Of a stretch of DNA of 64,000 bases, positions 56,996 to 63,006 are shown piece by piece. A program made the position numbers and the translations under genes. The number at the start of each line of letters is the position of its first letter. Within the stretch, counting starts at the first letter, position 1. This DNA comes from Terriglobia bacterium (GTDB taxonomy: Bacteria; Acidobacteriota; Terriglobia; Terriglobales; Acidobacteriaceae). The notes beneath the pieces were generated by a model that saw only the letters and a list, made by a program, of their open reading frames with translations, was not told the DNA's origin and made no database searches. The DNA lies in NCBI GenBank assembly GCA_020073215.1, contig JAIQFO010000024.1, forward strand, positions 1 to 64,000. Direction: 5' to 3'.

Positions 56996-57050
56996 GGCAT
57001 CGCTTTAGCGATGCCGCAACCCCCTGCGAAATCAGATACCCCTTTAGGGG
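56996..57050 (+). repeat. Paired TTTA-loop hairpin element, copy 3
   Basis: GGCATCGCTTTAGCGATGCC is a perfect 20-base hairpin with a TTTA loop. CCCCTTTAGGGG follows after 23 bases (57039-57050). It lies between the SDR and PagL-like genes. Confidence 0.88.
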
Positions 57051-57148
57051 CTGAGGGACTGACCTTCGAGGTCTTACGACACATGCTGACGATTTGTCTC
57101 CTGGCTCCCGTTCGCGTATCGTTCCTTTTTTCGACCCTGACCCTACCT

Positions 57149-57751
57149 ATGACACGATCCATTCGGCGTGCGGTCTCAGTTCTTCTCACATTCTTCCTGA
57201 CTCTTTTCCTCACCGTGTCTCTCGCCGTCGCCCAGGATCGCCCCGAGGAGGGCGGTCATGAGCTCCAGGTGTGGACTGGCGGCGGGCGCTCGGTTCCCGG
57301 TGGCACCAAAGATACCAGCGTGTGGAACGCGGGCGTTCGCTATGGGTGGATCCTGACCGCTCCGCACGGCCCCGGCTTTCTCAACGGACGATTTGAGTAT
57401 GCGGTGGATGCGGTCCCGGCGTTTGTCGTATTCCAACCAAAGAATACGGCGTACGGGGCGGGAGTGAATCCGGTGGGCCTGAAATGGATTTTCGCCACCC
57501 GCGGCGATGTTGCTCCGTACCTCGAGTTAAATGGCGGAACGCTGTTTACCACCCACGAAGTTCCGGCGGGAACGTCGACCATAAATTTCACCTCGGGCGC
57601 GGCCTTCGGGCTGCATTTTCTGGGAGAGCGTGCGTGGTCGGTGGAAGTCCGCTACATGCACATTTCGAATTCCGGACTGACCACGCCGAATCCGGGAATC
57701 AATACAGTGCAAGTGCGTTTGGGGTTTGGAAAATTTTTCGGCAAGAAGTAG
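57149..57751 (+). CDS. PagL-like lipid A 3-O-deacylase (acyloxyacyl hydrolase family)
   Basis: 200 residues from ATG 57149 (an ATG at 57083 is possible). A signal peptide (VLLTFFLTLFLTVSLAVAQ) precedes an eight-stranded outer-membrane barrel. The family motif appears as VRYMHISNSGLTTPNPGIN, with the catalytic His and Ser of the H-x-S pair; the third residue, Glu in Pseudomonas PagL, is less clear here. It would remove an acyl chain from lipid A in the outer membrane. Single gene; it converges on the iron operon with a 22-base gap. Confidence 0.8.
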   Translation: MTRSIRRAVSVLLTFFLTLFLTVSLAVAQDRPEEGGHELQVWTGGGRSVPGGTKDTSVWNAGVRYGWILTAPHGPGFLNGRFEYAVDAVPAFVVFQPKNTAYGAGVNPVGLKWIFATRGDVAPYLELNGGTLFTTHEVPAGTSTINFTSGAAFGLHFLGERAWSVEVRYMHISNSGLTTPNPGINTVQVRLGFGKFFGKK

Positions 57752-57773: not shown

Positions 57774-59006
57774 CTAACGGGGCCGCGATAACGCCGCCGC
57801 GGTCTGCCTCGGTTCCGCCCGCCGTCCGCAGCACGGCCCAGGCGGAATCGGCGCGCCGTGCGGACAGGTAGCCGGGTGGTTGAGGAACGTGCAGATCTTG
57901 TCCGTAGCTTCCGGCGAGAGGATGTGCTCGAATTTGCAGGCTTGCTGCTCGATTTCGGTTTCGCTGTCCATGGCAAGCGAATCGGTGAAAAGACGCTCGG
58001 CGAGACGGTGGCGGCGGATGATGTCCGCGGCGCGCTGGTGTCCACGCGCGGTGAGTTCGACAATCGCCGAGCCTTCGCCAAGCGAAAAGCCTGCCGGCTT
58101 CAGCGCGTCGTGGCAGGGATTGACGAAGGGCTTGTGATCGTGTGCCGCCGGCGGGTGCGGGCGAGTGGCCACCAATCCCATGGCAGCCATCTTTTCCACG
58201 GCGATGGATACGGGCAATGCGCCGTGCACTTCCATCCGGCCAATCTCGGCAATTTGGCCGTTCTCTTCCAAGGCAAACAGTTCTTCCAGCACCTCGTCAA
58301 TCTGCTCGTCGTCGGCCATCGAAAAAACTTCCTGGGCGGCGATTTTTCCGTGATGCAATTCAACCCGGCGGTCGGCCAGCCGCGCCACCACGGGGTCGTG
58401 CGTCACCATGACAATGGTGCGTCCCTGTTGATGAAGCTCGCGCAGCAGGCGCAAGACAATTTCTTCATTGACAGCGTCGAGGTTGCCGGTGGGTTCGTCG
58501 GCGAGCACGATCTTAGGATCGTTAATGAGGGCGCGGGCGATGCAAACACGCTGCTGCTCGCCTCCGGAAAGCTGCGAAGGCAGGTGGCCGGCGCGGTCTT
58601 TCAAGCCAACACGGTCGAGCGCATCAAGCGCTTCCTTTTCGTCGGTCATGCTGTGGAAATATTGAGCGAGCATGACGTTCTCGACCGCGGTGAGATAAGG
58701 GATCATGTGGAATTGCTGGAAGACGAAGCCGATCGTCTCGGCGCGCACATGGTTGAGATCCGATGCGCTGAGGCTGGCGACGTTTTGTCCGTCCAGCCAG
58801 ATTTCGCCGCTGGTGGGGCGGTCGAGACATCCGATGAGATTGACCATGGTGCTCTTGCCCGAGCCCGAGGGACCCATCATCGCAACCCACTCTCCGGGCG
58901 CGATGGAGAGAGAAATGTCGTCGAGCGCATTGATGAGGCTGCGGCCGCCATTATTCTCCTCTTCTCTGGCCGGGTAACTCTTGGTAACGCCCTTAAGTTG
59001 AATCAT
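57774..59006 (-). CDS. ABC ATPase fused to a DtxR-family metalloregulator
   Basis: 410 residues. Residues 1-225 are a LolD/MacB-type ATPase: Walker [10 protein letters not shown] (45-53), Q-loop FVFQQF (94-99), signature LSGGEQQR (146-153), Walker [10 protein letters not shown] (166-174) and His 203. After a short linker, residues 234-281 read like a winged helix ([30 protein letters not shown]). Residues 317-388 match the DtxR/MntR dimer and metal domain: [36 protein letters not shown] and [10 protein letters not shown]. Metal ligands His333, Glu337, Cys357, Glu360 and His361 are conserved; the DtxR ligand His98 is Glu here. It serves the two permeases upstream in an iron operon. No characterised example of this fusion is known to me. 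Confidence 0.9.
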
Positions 59007-59109: not shown

Positions 59110-60273
59110 CTACTCTCCCCGCAAAATAATGGCGGGCTGAACGCGGCGCAGCAGTCCGATCGGCAGGATCGCCGAGATGAGCGCCACGGCAACGCTCCCC
59201 GCCAGCACGTACGGAAAAACGCTGAAGCGCGGCACCACAGGCGCGTGGAAGTTGACGCGTCCGATCCACGCCGCCACGCCAATGCCGATGAAGAAGCCAA
59301 GAATCGCGCCGACTACGCCCAGGGCCGCGGCTTCCGCCGCGAAGAATCCGTTGACCAGACGCTCGGATGCGCCCAGGGCTTTCATGATGGCAAAGTCGCG
59401 CCGGCGGTCGAAGACCCATCCGATGAGCGTTGCCAGCACACAGAGCGCGGACGTGAGTACCACCAGCGTGGAGGAGGCGTAGAGCGTGGCGCGCGTCTTG
59501 TTCAACACGTTCGCTTCGCCTTCCATGATCTGGCGGACGGGGCGAATCTCCGCCCCGGGCAGAAGCCGCGCCAGTTGGCGAATCGATGCTTCAACTTCCG
59601 CGGCGGTTCCGTTGGCGGCGACTTCAATGGTCGAGGGCGCGACCCCGGTCCAGCTCTGGAATTCAGATTGATCGAGATAAATACGACTGTCCTCGCCCGC
59701 TCCGGTCTGGAGCATTCCGGCGGGTGCGAGTTGGATCGCTTTGCCTTGAAACGTCAGTTCGAAGGGCTGTCGCTCGGGGCTGACTACCGTGGCCGCGCGC
59801 ATTCCGATCAGCGCTTCGTTGGGCACGTCGGGCCAATGGCTCACCTTCCACCAGTGATTTAACTGGCGGGCGCGAGTGAAGTCGGTGCCGGCGACGACTA
59901 CAGATTGTCCGTCGCGAGTGCGTGCAACCGCGTAGGCGAAAGGAACCGCCAGCGTCTTTGCGCCGAGAACCGATTCGACTTTGGTCAATGCGTCGGCGGG
60001 CAAGGCCTGTCCCTCTTTCGCAACGATGACCACGTTGGCGCCATAATTTCGAAATTCCGTGCGCAGTTTGGCCTGCACGTCGACGTAGAGGTTCATCATC
60101 GCTGTGGCCACGGCGGCCGCAACGATCATGGCCAGCAAAGCAGAGGCGGCGCGTCTGCGGCGTAACACGGCGGCGCGCAGAAGCATCCGAGCAAACATGG
60201 AAATGTGCTGCGCCTGAGCCCGGCGATCGGCAACCTGCTTCGGACTGTGGAGCGTGCCGGGAAGGGCGTTCAT
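59110..60273 (-). CDS. ABC permease of iron-uptake system (FtsX/MacB fold)
   Basis: 387 residues. One N-terminal helix (ASALLAMIVAAAVATAMMNL), a periplasmic MacB-like domain (about 70-255: GANVVIVAKEGQALPADALT, NHWWKVSHWPDVPNEALIGM) and three C-terminal helices around VFDRRRDFAIMKALGASERL. Paired permeases of this kind occur next to FTR1 and P19-type iron proteins, for example in the Campylobacter P19 and E. coli FetMP-like loci. It overlaps the first permease gene by four bases (ATGA). Confidence 0.9.
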   Translation of the reverse strand: MNALPGTLHSPKQVADRRAQAQHISMFARMLLRAAVLRRRRAASALLAMIVAAAVATAMMNLYVDVQAKLRTEFRNYGANVVIVAKEGQALPADALTKVESVLGAKTLAVPFAYAVARTRDGQSVVVAGTDFTRARQLNHWWKVSHWPDVPNEALIGMRAATVVSPERQPFELTFQGKAIQLAPAGMLQTGAGEDSRIYLDQSEFQSWTGVAPSTIEVAANGTAAEVEASIRQLARLLPGAEIRPVRQIMEGEANVLNKTRATLYASSTLVVLTSALCVLATLIGWVFDRRRDFAIMKALGASERLVNGFFAAEAAALGVVGAILGFFIGIGVAAWIGRVNFHAPVVPRFSVFPYVLAGSVAVALISAILPIGLLRRVQPAIILRGE

Positions 60274-61589
60274 CCTTCACCTCGCAGGGCGAACACGGGA
60301 TCGAACTTCACGGCGCGGCGAATGGCGGCGGCGCTTCCGGCGAAAGTCACAAAGACGGCGATGGCGATGATGATAGGGAACAGCACGGGCTCAATGGAGA
60401 TCTGCGAGTTGAAAATCGACCGGCCGATCTGGCGCGCCAGCAGCGCTCCGGCGGAGAATCCGGCGACGCCGCCGACTAGCGCGAGCAGCAGCGCCTCCGC
60501 AAAGAAGATCGCGGAGACTACCAGATGGCCCGCGCCCAGCGCCTTCATCAGGCCGACTTCAACCCGGCGTTCATAAATGGCCGTAGCCATGGCCGCCGAA
60601 ACGGCAAGCGCGGAAGCGAAAAGCGCGGCGAGCGTGATCAGCAGCATCAGTCCCTTGATCCGCGAAAGCACCGTGCCTTCGTTCTGGGCCACCTGCCGAA
60701 TCTGCTCCGCGTGCGAATGCGGAATGACTTCCTGCAACTGAAAGGCAATCGACTGCACGTACGGTGAGCAATACCAGCGATCGTAAACCTCGGGCGTCAT
60801 CGTCTTGGGATCGCGGATGGCAAGCGCATCCTGAGGCTTGGTCATAGCGCTGACGTAGACACGGCGTACGGCGCCCGGTTTGCCGAGAATCTGTTGCGCC
60901 AGGGCGAGCGGCGCCACAATCTGGTCGTCCTCGCTGGCTCCGGTCGAGAGGATGCCGGAGATGGTCAGCTGGCGCCCGGAGACATCGAGCGTGTCGCCTG
61001 GCTTCTTCGCCAGCTTCGTTGCCAATCGGTCGCCTACCAGAATGCTTTCGGAGTTGTCATCCGGCCAGCCGCACGCCGCTGGCGAGTCTTCGACTCGCCC
61101 TGGACGGGCGAGCCGCCCGTCCCCACACAAGCCCTCTACTTTCCACCAGGGATGCGTGATCCGCACGCCGGTGGTGAAGTCTTCCTTGCCGAAGGTGAGT
61201 TGCTTATTGAAGTAGGTGCCAACCAGCGTTACATCCTTCGCGCCGCCGCCGAGTTTCACCGTAACCGGCAGCATGGGCGAGAAGCCGACGATGTTGTGGT
61301 GCCAGAAGGTGCCGCGAATTTTCGGAAGATCCGCTTCGTTCAGAAACGCGCCGTCGCTGGGAGGCTTCAGGTTAACGCCACCAACTTCCACGTCAAGCGT
61401 GTCTTCCTGCGGCGTAACCACCAGATTAGCGCCGTAGGTGCGCAGTTCGCGGTTGATCTTGTCGCCGATATCGGTGGCCACGGCAATCATGGCGGTTGCG
61501 ACCGCAACGCCGAGCGTGATCGCGATGCCCGCCAGCAGCTTGCGGCGCGCTTGGCGGCGAAACGATTCGTAGACGAGGCGGGGGAACAT
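60270..61589 (-). CDS. ABC permease of iron-uptake system, with repeat-derived insertion
   Basis: 439 residues from ATG 61589, which overlaps the FTR1 stop by one base; longer upstream frames run through the FTR1 gene. Layout as in its partner: one helix (LLAGIAITLGVAVATAMIAV), a periplasmic domain, and three helices around IYERRVEVGLMKALGAGHLV. Between WWKVEG and WPDDNSESILVGDR there are about 21 extra residues (containing CGDGRLARPGR) where the partner goes straight from WWKVSH to WPDVPNEALIG. The DNA of this stretch (61071-61132) is a dispersed repeat also found between genes at 22471. The reading frame stays open, so the protein may still work. Confidence 0.88.
   Translation of the reverse strand: MFPRLVYESFRRQARRKLLAGIAITLGVAVATAMIAVATDIGDKINRELRTYGANLVVTPQEDTLDVEVGGVNLKPPSDGAFLNEADLPKIRGTFWHHNIVGFSPMLPVTVKLGGGAKDVTLVGTYFNKQLTFGKEDFTTGVRITHPWWKVEGLCGDGRLARPGRVEDSPAACGWPDDNSESILVGDRLATKLAKKPGDTLDVSGRQLTISGILSTGASEDDQIVAPLALAQQILGKPGAVRRVYVSAMTKPQDALAIRDPKTMTPEVYDRWYCSPYVQSIAFQLQEVIPHSHAEQIRQVAQNEGTVLSRIKGLMLLITLAALFASALAVSAAMATAIYERRVEVGLMKALGAGHLVVSAIFFAEALLLALVGGVAGFSAGALLARQIGRSIFNSQISIEPVLFPIIIAIAVFVTFAGSAAAIRRAVKFDPVFALRGEG
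61071..61132. repeat. Dispersed palindromic repeat inserted in frame in a permease gene
   Basis: Two hairpins, GGCGAGTC-TTC-GACTCGCC (61081-61099) and GGACGGGC...GCCCGTCC (61102-61122). The second plus flank matches the intergenic element at 22471 at 28 of 29 bases in reverse complement. The insertion is about 63 bases and so keeps the frame. Confidence 0.85.
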
Positions 61590-62839
61590 TATTTCTGCTC
61601 GAAGTAGTGTCGGCCCGCCGCCACGTCGGCCTCGGAGACGATGACCGAGTCTTCGGTGACCTGCGCCTTCAGCGGAATCGGATTGCAGCCGCCCGGCATG
61701 CCGAGCGACTGAGCGTTGATCGGAGCGGCGCAGTTCTTGCAGATTACGCCCTGCGCTCCCTTGTAAAAGCCGACCGGGCCGCAGATTTCGCAAGCGTCGA
61801 ACAGGGTAGCTACTTTTCCGTCGGGCTTCTGGTAGAGCCAGAAACGGACTTCCACCCCGCTTTCGCTGGCTTCAAAGCGATGCAGTTCGCCGTCGTAAAC
61901 CTGCTTTAGCGGAATCGAAACTTTGCCGTCGACGAACGTGACTTCCGTGGCCGGCGAGAGCGCGCTGGCGCTCTTCTCATAGATGAAGCTGGCCGTGATC
62001 ATCACAATGAACACGAACGAGAAGACGTAAATCGAGGCCATCCACATACGTTCGCGGCGCGCCGTCCAGAGCGCTTTGCGCCGGGCGGCGCCGGACTCCG
62101 GCAACTCGACCGGCTGCCGGCTCTTCATTTCAAACAGCACCATCAGCGCCGCCAGCACCAGGATGGTGACAAAAAAGAAGAAGTCGTTGCGGACGATGGG
62201 GCCGATCAGCGCCATCTCCTGCCGGGAAGAGGGAAGCACGCCATTCTCGGAAAGCTCGTGCAGGCCCGAGATCACCAGTTGCCCGGCCACCAGGAACAGA
62301 ATCGCGGTCGTGACCTTGAAGAACTTCTGCAGATTGATTTTGACGCTGCCCTTGACGAAGATCACGCCGAACAGGATGGCCACCACCACGCCCAGGACGG
62401 TGCCGATGAAGCTCATCAGTTCGCTCGAGTTCAGGGTTACCGCGGACAGGATCAGAACCGTTTCGACGCCCTCGCGCAACACCATCAGGAAGACGAAAAG
62501 GAACAACCCGATCCAGGCGTCCTCGCGGGCAAACAGGCCGATTTTGCCCTCAATTTGCCCTTTGAGTTTGCGGCCGGTCTTCATCATGAAGACGATCATG
62601 GTGATGACGAAGACGGCCGCCACCAGCATGACCCATCCTTCAAAGATGTCCTGGTTCCACTTGAGGCGGGAGAGCGCGACGGCCATGCCGATCGACCCGG
62701 CAAAGGCGGCTGCCAGAGCCGCGTACACCGATTTGCGCAGATCATTGCGGCCGATCTTAGCCAGATAGGCCAGGGTGATGCCGACGATGAGGGCGGCCTC
62801 GACGCCTTCGCGGAGCGTGACGATGAATGCCTGGAGCAT
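61589..62839 (-). CDS. FTR1-family iron permease fused to DUF2318 (FtrD-like) domain
   Basis: 416 residues. Seven or so helices carry the two REGxE iron motifs: LREGVEAALIVG (residues 10-14) and VLREGVETVLIL (122-126). The C-terminal 130 residues form a periplasmic DUF2318 domain with cysteine pairs DACEICGPVGFY and GVICKNCAAP plus PGGCNP, as in FtrD/Fe-S proteins of P19-type systems. It imports iron across the inner membrane, probably with a redox step by the C-terminal domain. It is the first gene of the operon and lies about 23 bases downstream of a Fur-box-like site. No P19/FetP periplasmic iron protein gene is in the window. Confidence 0.93.
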   Translation of the reverse strand: MLQAFIVTLREGVEAALIVGITLAYLAKIGRNDLRKSVYAALAAAFAGSIGMAVALSRLKWNQDIFEGWVMLVAAVFVITMIVFMMKTGRKLKGQIEGKIGLFAREDAWIGLFLFVFLMVLREGVETVLILSAVTLNSSELMSFIGTVLGVVVAILFGVIFVKGSVKINLQKFFKVTTAILFLVAGQLVISGLHELSENGVLPSSRQEMALIGPIVRNDFFFFVTILVLAALMVLFEMKSRQPVELPESGAARRKALWTARRERMWMASIYVFSFVFIVMITASFIYEKSASALSPATEVTFVDGKVSIPLKQVYDGELHRFEASESGVEVRFWLYQKPDGKVATLFDACEICGPVGFYKGAQGVICKNCAAPINAQSLGMPGGCNPIPLKAQVTEDSVIVSEADVAAGRHYFEQK

Positions 62840-62861
62840 GGAACAACCGTTCGCTTTCTAA

Positions 62862-62892
62862 GTGAAAATGAATTTCAATTTCAATATCAATA
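62862..62892 (-). promoter_or_regulatory. Fur-box-like site upstream of the FTR1 operon
   Basis: Read on the minus strand, GATATTGAAATTGAAATTCA followed by TTTTCA is a chain of GATATT/GAAATT hexamers with an inverted CATTTTC, as in Fur boxes built from repeated NATWAT units. It lies 23-53 bases before the FTR1 start, where it would cover the promoter. It could also serve a DtxR-type regulator such as the one fused to the ATPase. Confidence 0.65.
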
Positions 62893-63006
62893 GGATACGG
62901 GTTGGAACGGGGCCCGGTCAACGCAATCCATCACCAGTGGACGTGATTTGCATCACACGGGGAAACACGGCAGGGAACGGGGTTTGGCGCCCCCGGAGAG
63001 CTTGCA

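Follow-up and report, generated by a model that had tools for sequence, protein, structure and literature searches.

Can the motor of an iron importer carry its own metal sensor, and what would such a sensor do there? The question arises from a gene at positions 57774–59006 (minus strand) of the window, the 64,000-nucleotide stretch of a Terriglobia bacterium contig (JAIQFO010000024.1) analyzed here, which encodes an ABC ATPase and a DtxR-type metal sensor in a single chain of 410 amino acids. Bacterial iron uptake is usually described in terms of transcription repressors; that cytosolic iron controls an importer directly is, to our knowledge, little documented. The initial annotation had proposed that the motor carries an apparently complete DtxR regulator, through which iron could either gate ATP hydrolysis or turn the free ATPase into a repressor of its own operon. 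Among the open-licence papers listed by our literature searches, none could be recognized from its title or abstract as dealing with an ABC-DtxR fusion.

An ABC ATPase and a DtxR-type sensor in one protein

The open reading frame runs from 59006 to 57774 without interruption, and Pfam assigns two domains to its product: ABC_tran at residues 28–173 (E = 2.8e-36) and, on the same chain, the metal-binding and dimerization domain Fe_dep_repr_C at residues 319–388 (E = 2.7e-25; 88.6 bits against a cut-off of 27). This bears out the earlier placement of a DtxR metal and dimer domain at residues 317–388 and the union of motor and metal sensor in one protein beside FTR1. The nucleotide-binding domain (residues 1–225; 58332–59006) is of the LolD/MacB/FtsE type. 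MacB, LolD and FtsE were its best general models, each scoring below its own equivalog cut-off, and the top Foldseek matches of the ATPase fold were MJ0796 and MacB. The motifs that we take to be Walker A, Q-loop, signature, Walker B and H-loop are invariant across 62 aligned rows (the window and 61 of 67 representative relatives) and, together with the ABC_tran match, place all ATPase motifs in the first 225 residues, as first annotated. The C-terminal part matched IdeR best among solved structures (E = 2.6e-14). With its predicted model (pLDDT 86.3, pTM 0.81), all 50 Foldseek matches listed were DtxR-family chains (DtxR, IdeR, SloR and DR2539). The full-length model, of moderate confidence overall (pTM 0.62), leads from the last ATPase strand (residues 221–227) directly into sensor helix 1 (residues 229–248).

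The fusion is real and is neither a chance event nor the product of a frameshift or assembly error, because fused reading frames recur in related and distant Acidobacteriota and both parts evolve under purifying selection. Against 11 relatives, and where dS was computable, dN/dS was 0.02–0.08 in the ATPase, 0.02–0.09 in the part resembling a helix-turn-helix (HTH), 0.02–0.07 in the metal domain (8 of the 11 comparisons) and from 0 to about 1 in the last 17 residues. The many genomes with fused frames already refute the reading that a frameshift, sequencing error or mis-assembly joined two genes, and we regard its probability as negligible.

The whole-protein search covered 61 genomes, the window's own included. 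Within the genus, 19 of 24 genomes had a near-full-length match of at least 82% identity and one (G014) had a match in pieces; among 13 other genomes of the family, seven carried the protein whole and two (G026 and G028) in pieces at contig ends. The 80 named relatives among the matches listed were Acidobacteriota MAGs, many of them Acidobacteriaceae or Terriglobia. We also searched 396 Acidobacteriota genomes with an alignment of the C-terminal part, where 69 of the matches listed, in 67 genomes, reached the last profile column with at least 91 bits. Gene maps and reading-frame checks identified the fused form in 22 of the 396 genomes; the other 47 matches, 37 of which were retrieved with their surroundings, were stand-alone or lay in frames without the length to encode both parts. 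Over all searches, which surveyed fusions in Acidobacteriota, fused forms occurred in 11 family groups (f1, f2, f7, f8, f27, f31, f52, f57, f69, f75 and f89). Genome G014 has an ATPase-sensor frame (L046, G014:C141) that pairs a genus-like ATPase with a sensor of another type, lacking the His/Cys insert described below, alongside another copy that is partial and contains an N-run (L045, G014:C363), which we read as recombination or an assembly chimera.

Metal-ligand positions, wing insert and cysteine tail

We assessed conservation in an alignment of 99 rows comprising the window and 98 deduplicated fused loci, among which the window's own gene may recur. These are 98 of 103 distinct loci: the locus with the N-run (L045) was included, and a locus cut by its contig end (L029) and four with no recognizable sensor (L041–L044) were dropped. 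In the Fe_dep_repr_C domain (57843–58052), the five annotated ligands are conserved, with His333, Glu337, Glu360 and His361 present in 99 of 99 rows and Cys357 in 98 of 99. Glu353 is kept in 94 of 99 rows and Glu238, in helix 1, in 96 of 98. When fused and stand-alone members were combined into a profile, it matched DtxR-family chains (E = 5e-24) and aligned Glu238 with DtxR Met10. The DtxR ligands, which we take to be Met10, His79, Glu83, His98, Cys102, Glu105 and His106, have counterparts throughout: His79, Glu83, Cys102, Glu105 and His106 are kept, Met10 is replaced by Glu238 and His98 by Glu353. By this assumed ligand list, each of the seven positions in the two DtxR-type metal sites would be occupied by a residue able to bind metal. 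Glutamate in place of Met10 and His98 presumably makes the site more MntR-like, and Mn2+ is therefore a possible ligand; we infer that the fused sensor binds Fe2+.

The protein offers further candidate ligands. A His/Cys-rich insert in the wing (residues 286–312; 58071–58151), recognized in the alignment, is present with its conserved His and Cys in 90 of 99 rows, the other nine being gapped at Cys298. His289, His291, Cys298 and His299 are conserved where the insert exists, and more distant families are without it. The C-terminal end carries the signature of the subfamily, C372-x8-C381PHG..IP.G.C392C393 (57828–57893). Cys372 is invariant in the 99 rows, and Cys381, His383, Cys392 and Cys393 were each found in 98 of 98. 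Across 69 fused and stand-alone rows, Cys372, Cys392 and Cys393 are invariant and Cys381 is kept in at least 90%; the full cysteine set occurred in none of the other DtxR-type rows listed for the charge comparison below. The tail is a putative metal or Fe-S site additional to the DtxR-type sites, a role that we consider possible.

A degenerate DNA-binding half

The segment between the ATPase and the wing insert (residues 229–285; 58152–58322) resembles a winged helix, with helix 1 carrying Glu238. The Pfam model of the N-terminal DNA-binding domain matched the C-terminal part alone with 13.6 bits (E = 0.078; cut-off 26) and was not listed at E = 1 for the whole protein. Stand-alone relatives behaved similarly, one scoring 18.3 bits and two further ones giving no match to this model at E = 0.01. 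In DtxR, helix 2 of the HTH lies in the region after helix 1. Neither predicted model of the fused protein has a helix between helix 1 (229–248) and the next helix (266–275). The annotated winged helix at residues 234–281 therefore stands as a fold, but its profile score stays below the cut-off; likewise, the profile check of the residues after 226 recovered the C-terminal domain and left the N-terminal one short. To call the regulator apparently complete was too strong, since its N-domain falls below the cut-off while that of the canonical DtxR encoded in the window's genome passes it with 45.3 bits.

The segment is also acidic. Net charge before the first metal-binding His had a median of −6 in fused proteins (n = 33, −15 to +1) and −7 in FeoB-linked stand-alone relatives (n = 35, −11 to 0) versus +1 in other DtxR-type proteins of the phylum (n = 24, −4 to +6), with overlapping ranges among the three groups. 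The segment was counted from the domain start in fused rows and over 73 residues in the others. L045 and L217 were left out of the sensor groups, L214 and L216 as rows without an anchor, and three anchor-less frames (L156, one in L241 and one in L243) out of the comparison set; among the 24 rows of that set are four membrane-anchored DtxR-FeoA proteins and the truncated L228. Residues 230–285 of the window's protein have a net charge of −9. Such acidity does not strictly exclude DNA binding.

The third domain of DtxR is SH3-like; the fused protein has no SH3/FeoA domain, which also speaks against a complete regulator. Compared with the DtxR, IdeR and MntR repressors (PF01325 and PF02742), the fused protein shares the metal and dimerization domain with its fold and ligand positions. 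In contrast to them, it is joined to an ABC ATPase, has a cysteine tail, lacks the SH3/FeoA domain, carries Glu for Met10 and His98, and has an acidic, degenerate HTH without helix 2. Judged from sequence and models, the DtxR-derived domain fails the tests of DNA binding applied here to DtxR repressors (profile score, helix 2 and charge), which rules out an intact DtxR repressor, and the fused part has probably lost its DNA-binding half.

The fused gene closes an FTR1 operon

The ATPase-sensor gene is the last of four genes on the minus strand, in the order FTR1-FtrD, permease, permease and ATPase-sensor. The first (61589–62839) encodes an FTR1 iron permease and an FtrD-like domain in one protein (Pfam FTR1, E = 2.2e-38; FtrD-like, E = 1.2e-28). 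Permease 1 (60270–61589) is of the FtsX/MacB type (FtsX, E = 2.5e-13; MacB_PCD, E = 1.4e-12, both with the longer frame) and has 439 amino acids from the internal Met of MFPRLV, which we assume to be its start. Permease 2 (59110–60273) is of the same type (FtsX, E = 4.3e-16). The window's protein is a MacB/LolD/FtsE-kind ABC ATPase in an FTR1/P19-like operon. A gene for a PagL-type lipid A 3-O-deacylase (57011–57751) adjoins the ATPase-sensor gene convergently.

The survey of homologues for the same fusion beside FTR1, suggested with the initial annotation, found the operon at 31 of the 33 fused loci that were mapped, counting one (L035) whose contig begins within the FTR1-FtrD gene and shows its FtrD end alone. 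The two exceptions, L034 (G041) and L036 (G043), belong to one genus of the sister family f2. In that genus, the ATPase-sensor gene has moved out of the FTR1 operon and sits among unrelated genes, close to those for riboflavin and NADH dehydrogenase. FTR1 occupies a different contig, so the two do not necessarily go together there. We also identified three ATPases of like FTR1/permease/ATPase operons that end without a sensor: L041 (G035), L042 (G049) and L043 (G042), the last of which begins inside permease 1, with the FTR1 end beyond the contig. With the operon otherwise present, the sensor is dispensable there, and the three loci are natural sensor-less controls. A split-off sensor gene was considered for them and rejected, as no other sensor match lies within L041, L042 or L043. 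In other families, three loci (L169, L171 and L176) have FTR1 frames that extend some 120–180 residues further N-terminally when read from stop to stop; the longer frame of L169 gave no additional Pfam match.

The closest described counterpart is the FTR1-P19-ABC system of Campylobacter jejuni (CJJ81176_1649–1656), which has a Fur box upstream (PMC6083913). Both systems combine an FTR1 permease with a further membrane protein, two ABC permeases, an ABC ATPase and an upstream Fur box or, in the window, a site resembling one. They differ in that the window's FTR1 and FtrD-like part are one protein and that its ATPase carries a sensor, which we assume to be absent from the C. jejuni ATPase. P19 and thioredoxins are not among the window's four operon genes either, and neither was found in the neighbors scanned. 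What the ABC part does in systems of the p19 type is itself described as unknown (PMC6083913). In the window's operon the ABC part would power uptake through FTR1, and the fusion provides a handle on that role in FTR1/p19 systems.

Sensor relatives beside FeoB

The closest kin of the fused sensor are stand-alone proteins of the same subfamily, which share the acidic, degenerate HTH, the metal domain and the CPHG..IP.G.CC tail. These are separate proteins that end in a FeoA domain, and most of their genes adjoin the one for the FeoB GTPase. The FeoA domain was matched in the three members scanned (E = 2.1e-15, 1.3e-12 and 5.5e-11), and the tails of the other members look similar. FeoB accounted for 22 of 29 neighboring frames scanned with Pfam (one per locus, on the upstream side); the other seven were not FeoB. 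The loci with an acidic HTH, this tail and a FeoA end are L168, L172, L177, L183, L187, L190–L209, L211, L215 and L227; one stand-alone set was drawn up without eight loci (L178, L188, L208, L212, L213, L214, L216 and L218). The type extends to plasmid pPRO1 of Pelobacter propionicus, where feoB is followed by a sensor-FeoA-type protein annotated as a "metal-dependent transcriptional regulator" (best match examined, from a tblastn search with the 64-residue metal part). This is a warning that some proteins so annotated beside feoB may not be transcription factors, and those of the sensor-FeoA type may act on FeoB directly.

The fused rows lie inside the stand-alone set, and five canonical rows outside it, in a quick maximum-likelihood tree built from 140 columns of 75 rows. 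The 34 fused rows form one side of a branch with an SH-aLRT of 90, which is below the trusted level and, given the few columns and some long branches, makes the tree a working result. This topology suggests that a sensor already serving FeoB was taken over by the FTR1/ABC motor. The window's genome, which is 98% complete, contains no convincing FeoB: its best FeoB_N matches are two tandem G-domains in one 503-residue frame that looks like Der.

Transcriptional control of the operon

An operator-like palindrome, TGAAATTGAAATTCATTTTCA, lies at 62863–62883 (minus strand), 23 nucleotides before the FTR1 start, and resembles a Fur box. We collected 66 distinct FTR1 upstream sequences from the named relatives and same-family genomes. 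A site matching a Fur consensus at 14 or more of 19 positions was present in 56 of the 66, a count whose members are not independent because the upstream sequences are related, and ten lacked such a site. Only 0.3% of 660 two-base-block shuffles reached this threshold. A DtxR consensus was matched at 14 of 19 in none of the 66 upstreams and did no better than the shuffles.

Within the window's genome, the palindrome is the only place found at two mismatches or fewer. At two mismatches, a site was found in seven of 17 other genomes and in none of the remaining ten. It precedes FTR1 in five (G015, G029, G035, G189 and G430), two of which (G189 and G430) belong to a distant family, and lies elsewhere in G084 and G234. 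Of these ten, eight genomes with the fused form (G038, G041, G055, G056, G132, G185, G226 and G248) are named here as having no site at this stringency. In G035, whose ATPase ends sensor-less (L041), the site lies 22 nucleotides before FTR1. G015 and G029 have three places each, which implies more than one operon. Next to the additional sites of G015, G029 and G430 lie genes for an OprB-type porin and a penicillin amidase, and otherwise for products of no Pfam family; a TonB gene is about 2 kb away from one of these sites.

The window's genome encodes three Fur-family proteins and one canonical DtxR/MntR with an intact HTH (L002). A Fur-type repressor acting at 62863–62883 probably controls the operon's transcription, a proposal drawn from the Fur-box likeness and the C. 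jejuni precedent. Since the genes by the extra sites are a porin, an amidase and frames without Pfam family, the case for Fur stays one of likeness.

Proposed iron gating of the motor and alternative readings

How would a sensor that has probably lost its DNA-binding half serve the transporter? The reading that we favor, at a little better than even chances, is that in soil Acidobacteriota an FTR1/ABC motor with an on-board, non-DNA-binding iron sensor stops when cytosolic iron is high, a case of trans-inhibition. ABC transporters operate with two ATPase copies, and these, placed under the FtsX-type permease pair, would bring two sensor domains face to face beneath the motor. The metal of DtxR links helix 1 with a metal domain that itself dimerizes. 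In the fused protein, where the model runs from the last ATPase strand straight into helix 1, rising cytosolic Fe2+ could fill the DtxR-type sites and tie this helix to the metal domain. The sensor pair would then hold the nucleotide-binding domains in a non-cycling state and shut the motor. Such braking would act on top of transcriptional control. The pairing in the complex, the negative sign and iron as the metal are the presumed form of this control. The annotated gating of the ATPase is upheld as the best reading, with metal, sign and mechanism as inferred parts.

ABC importers that sense their own substrate provide the model. The C-terminal domains of MetN (methionine) and ModC (molybdate) pair, and substrate locks the transporter (PMC10710835); C-terminal trans-inhibition domains on ABC ATPases have also been surveyed (PMC7367683). 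The earlier statement that metal sensor and motor are separate proteins in known systems thus meets precedents, for substrates other than iron, of a motor with its own substrate sensor. Like MetN (MetNI) and ModC (ModBC), the fused protein joins an ABC motor to a C-terminal domain that is expected to bind the imported substrate and to pair across the complex. However, the MetN domain is ferredoxin-like and that of ModC a TOBE domain, whereas in our protein a domain of DtxR type is attached to a MacB/FtsX-type motor. Furthermore, those systems are Type I importers with their permeases and a binding protein, and the permeases here are of the FtsX/MacB type; the fusion may therefore work like MetN and ModC without being a member of their group.

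The same metal chemistry could serve other ends. The C-terminal domain could take Fe2+ from FTR1 at the cytosolic face as an acceptor or chaperone, or iron could stimulate the motor through it, and the extra conserved Cys and His residues would allow metal to bind at more places than sensing requires. We find this unlikely, if worth keeping in mind, as the DtxR-type sites are sensor sites within a dimer domain and the stand-alone relatives carry FeoA, which in Bacteroides fragilis slows GTP hydrolysis by the FeoB to which it is fused (PMC8980893). A redox or Fe-S sensor, in which the four-cysteine tail (Cys372, Cys381, Cys392 and Cys393) would hold an Fe-S cluster or Zn and signal the state of the cluster instead of Fe2+, is rather improbable: the conservation of the tail in the 69 fused and stand-alone rows and the absence of the full set from the other DtxR-type rows listed are in line with such a sensor, but the DtxR ligands are about equally conserved and the cysteine spacing matches no Fe-S motif known to us. 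A purely structural domain, with metal fixing the ATPase dimer and sensing nothing, has a parallel in C-terminal elements that mainly aid pairing of nucleotide-binding domains, such as that of MlaF (PMC7367683). This, too, is very unlikely, since it leaves unexplained the derivation from FeoB-linked metal sensors and the continued likeness to them, and some operons have no sensor.

Repression of the operon by its own ATPase, as the initial annotation had envisaged, has only a very slender chance. On that account, the free, iron-loaded ATPase-DtxR protein would bind the operator upstream of FTR1 and shut its operon in the manner of DtxR. Its DtxR ancestry and a good palindrome 23 nucleotides before FTR1, unique in the genome at two mismatches or fewer, speak for it. 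Yet helix 2 is missing in the models, and the N-domain is acidic and below the Pfam cut-off. The site at 62840–62900, where DNA binding had been expected, is Fur-like, and a DtxR box was found at 14 of 19 in none of the 66 upstreams. Moreover, a like site precedes FTR1 in G035 with its sensor-less ATPase, G015 and G029 have three places each, and the genome has three Fur-family proteins to hand.

If trans-inhibition by the fused sensor holds, the cell may brake iron uptake directly, beyond gene control. The fusion would be a conserved and genetically compact case of a transcription-factor sensor moved onto a transporter motor, and it makes iron trans-inhibition directly testable. A broader reading, to which we give somewhat less than even odds, is that one Cys-tailed, DtxR-derived sensor subfamily acts as a general, DNA-free brake on both kinds of importer, gating two unrelated NTPase motors: the FeoB GTPase via a fused FeoA domain and the FTR1/ABC ATPase via direct fusion. 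Cytosolic iron would then halt uptake post-translationally. With the same reserve, this brake would span Acidobacteriota and, in its FeoB branch, reach at least one Desulfuromonadales plasmid.

Other DtxR derivatives in Acidobacteriota

We also identified another DtxR derivative in Acidobacteriota, in which an N-terminal, membrane-like helix (judged by eye) is followed by a DtxR metal domain and FeoA domains. This membrane-anchored DtxR-FeoA type was found at L228:436–1590, L232:102–1154, L242:138–1316 and L247:311–1159, and Pfam recognized two FeoA stretches in L232. In L228 and L247, a canonical-type DtxR frame adjoins the membrane-anchored derivative.
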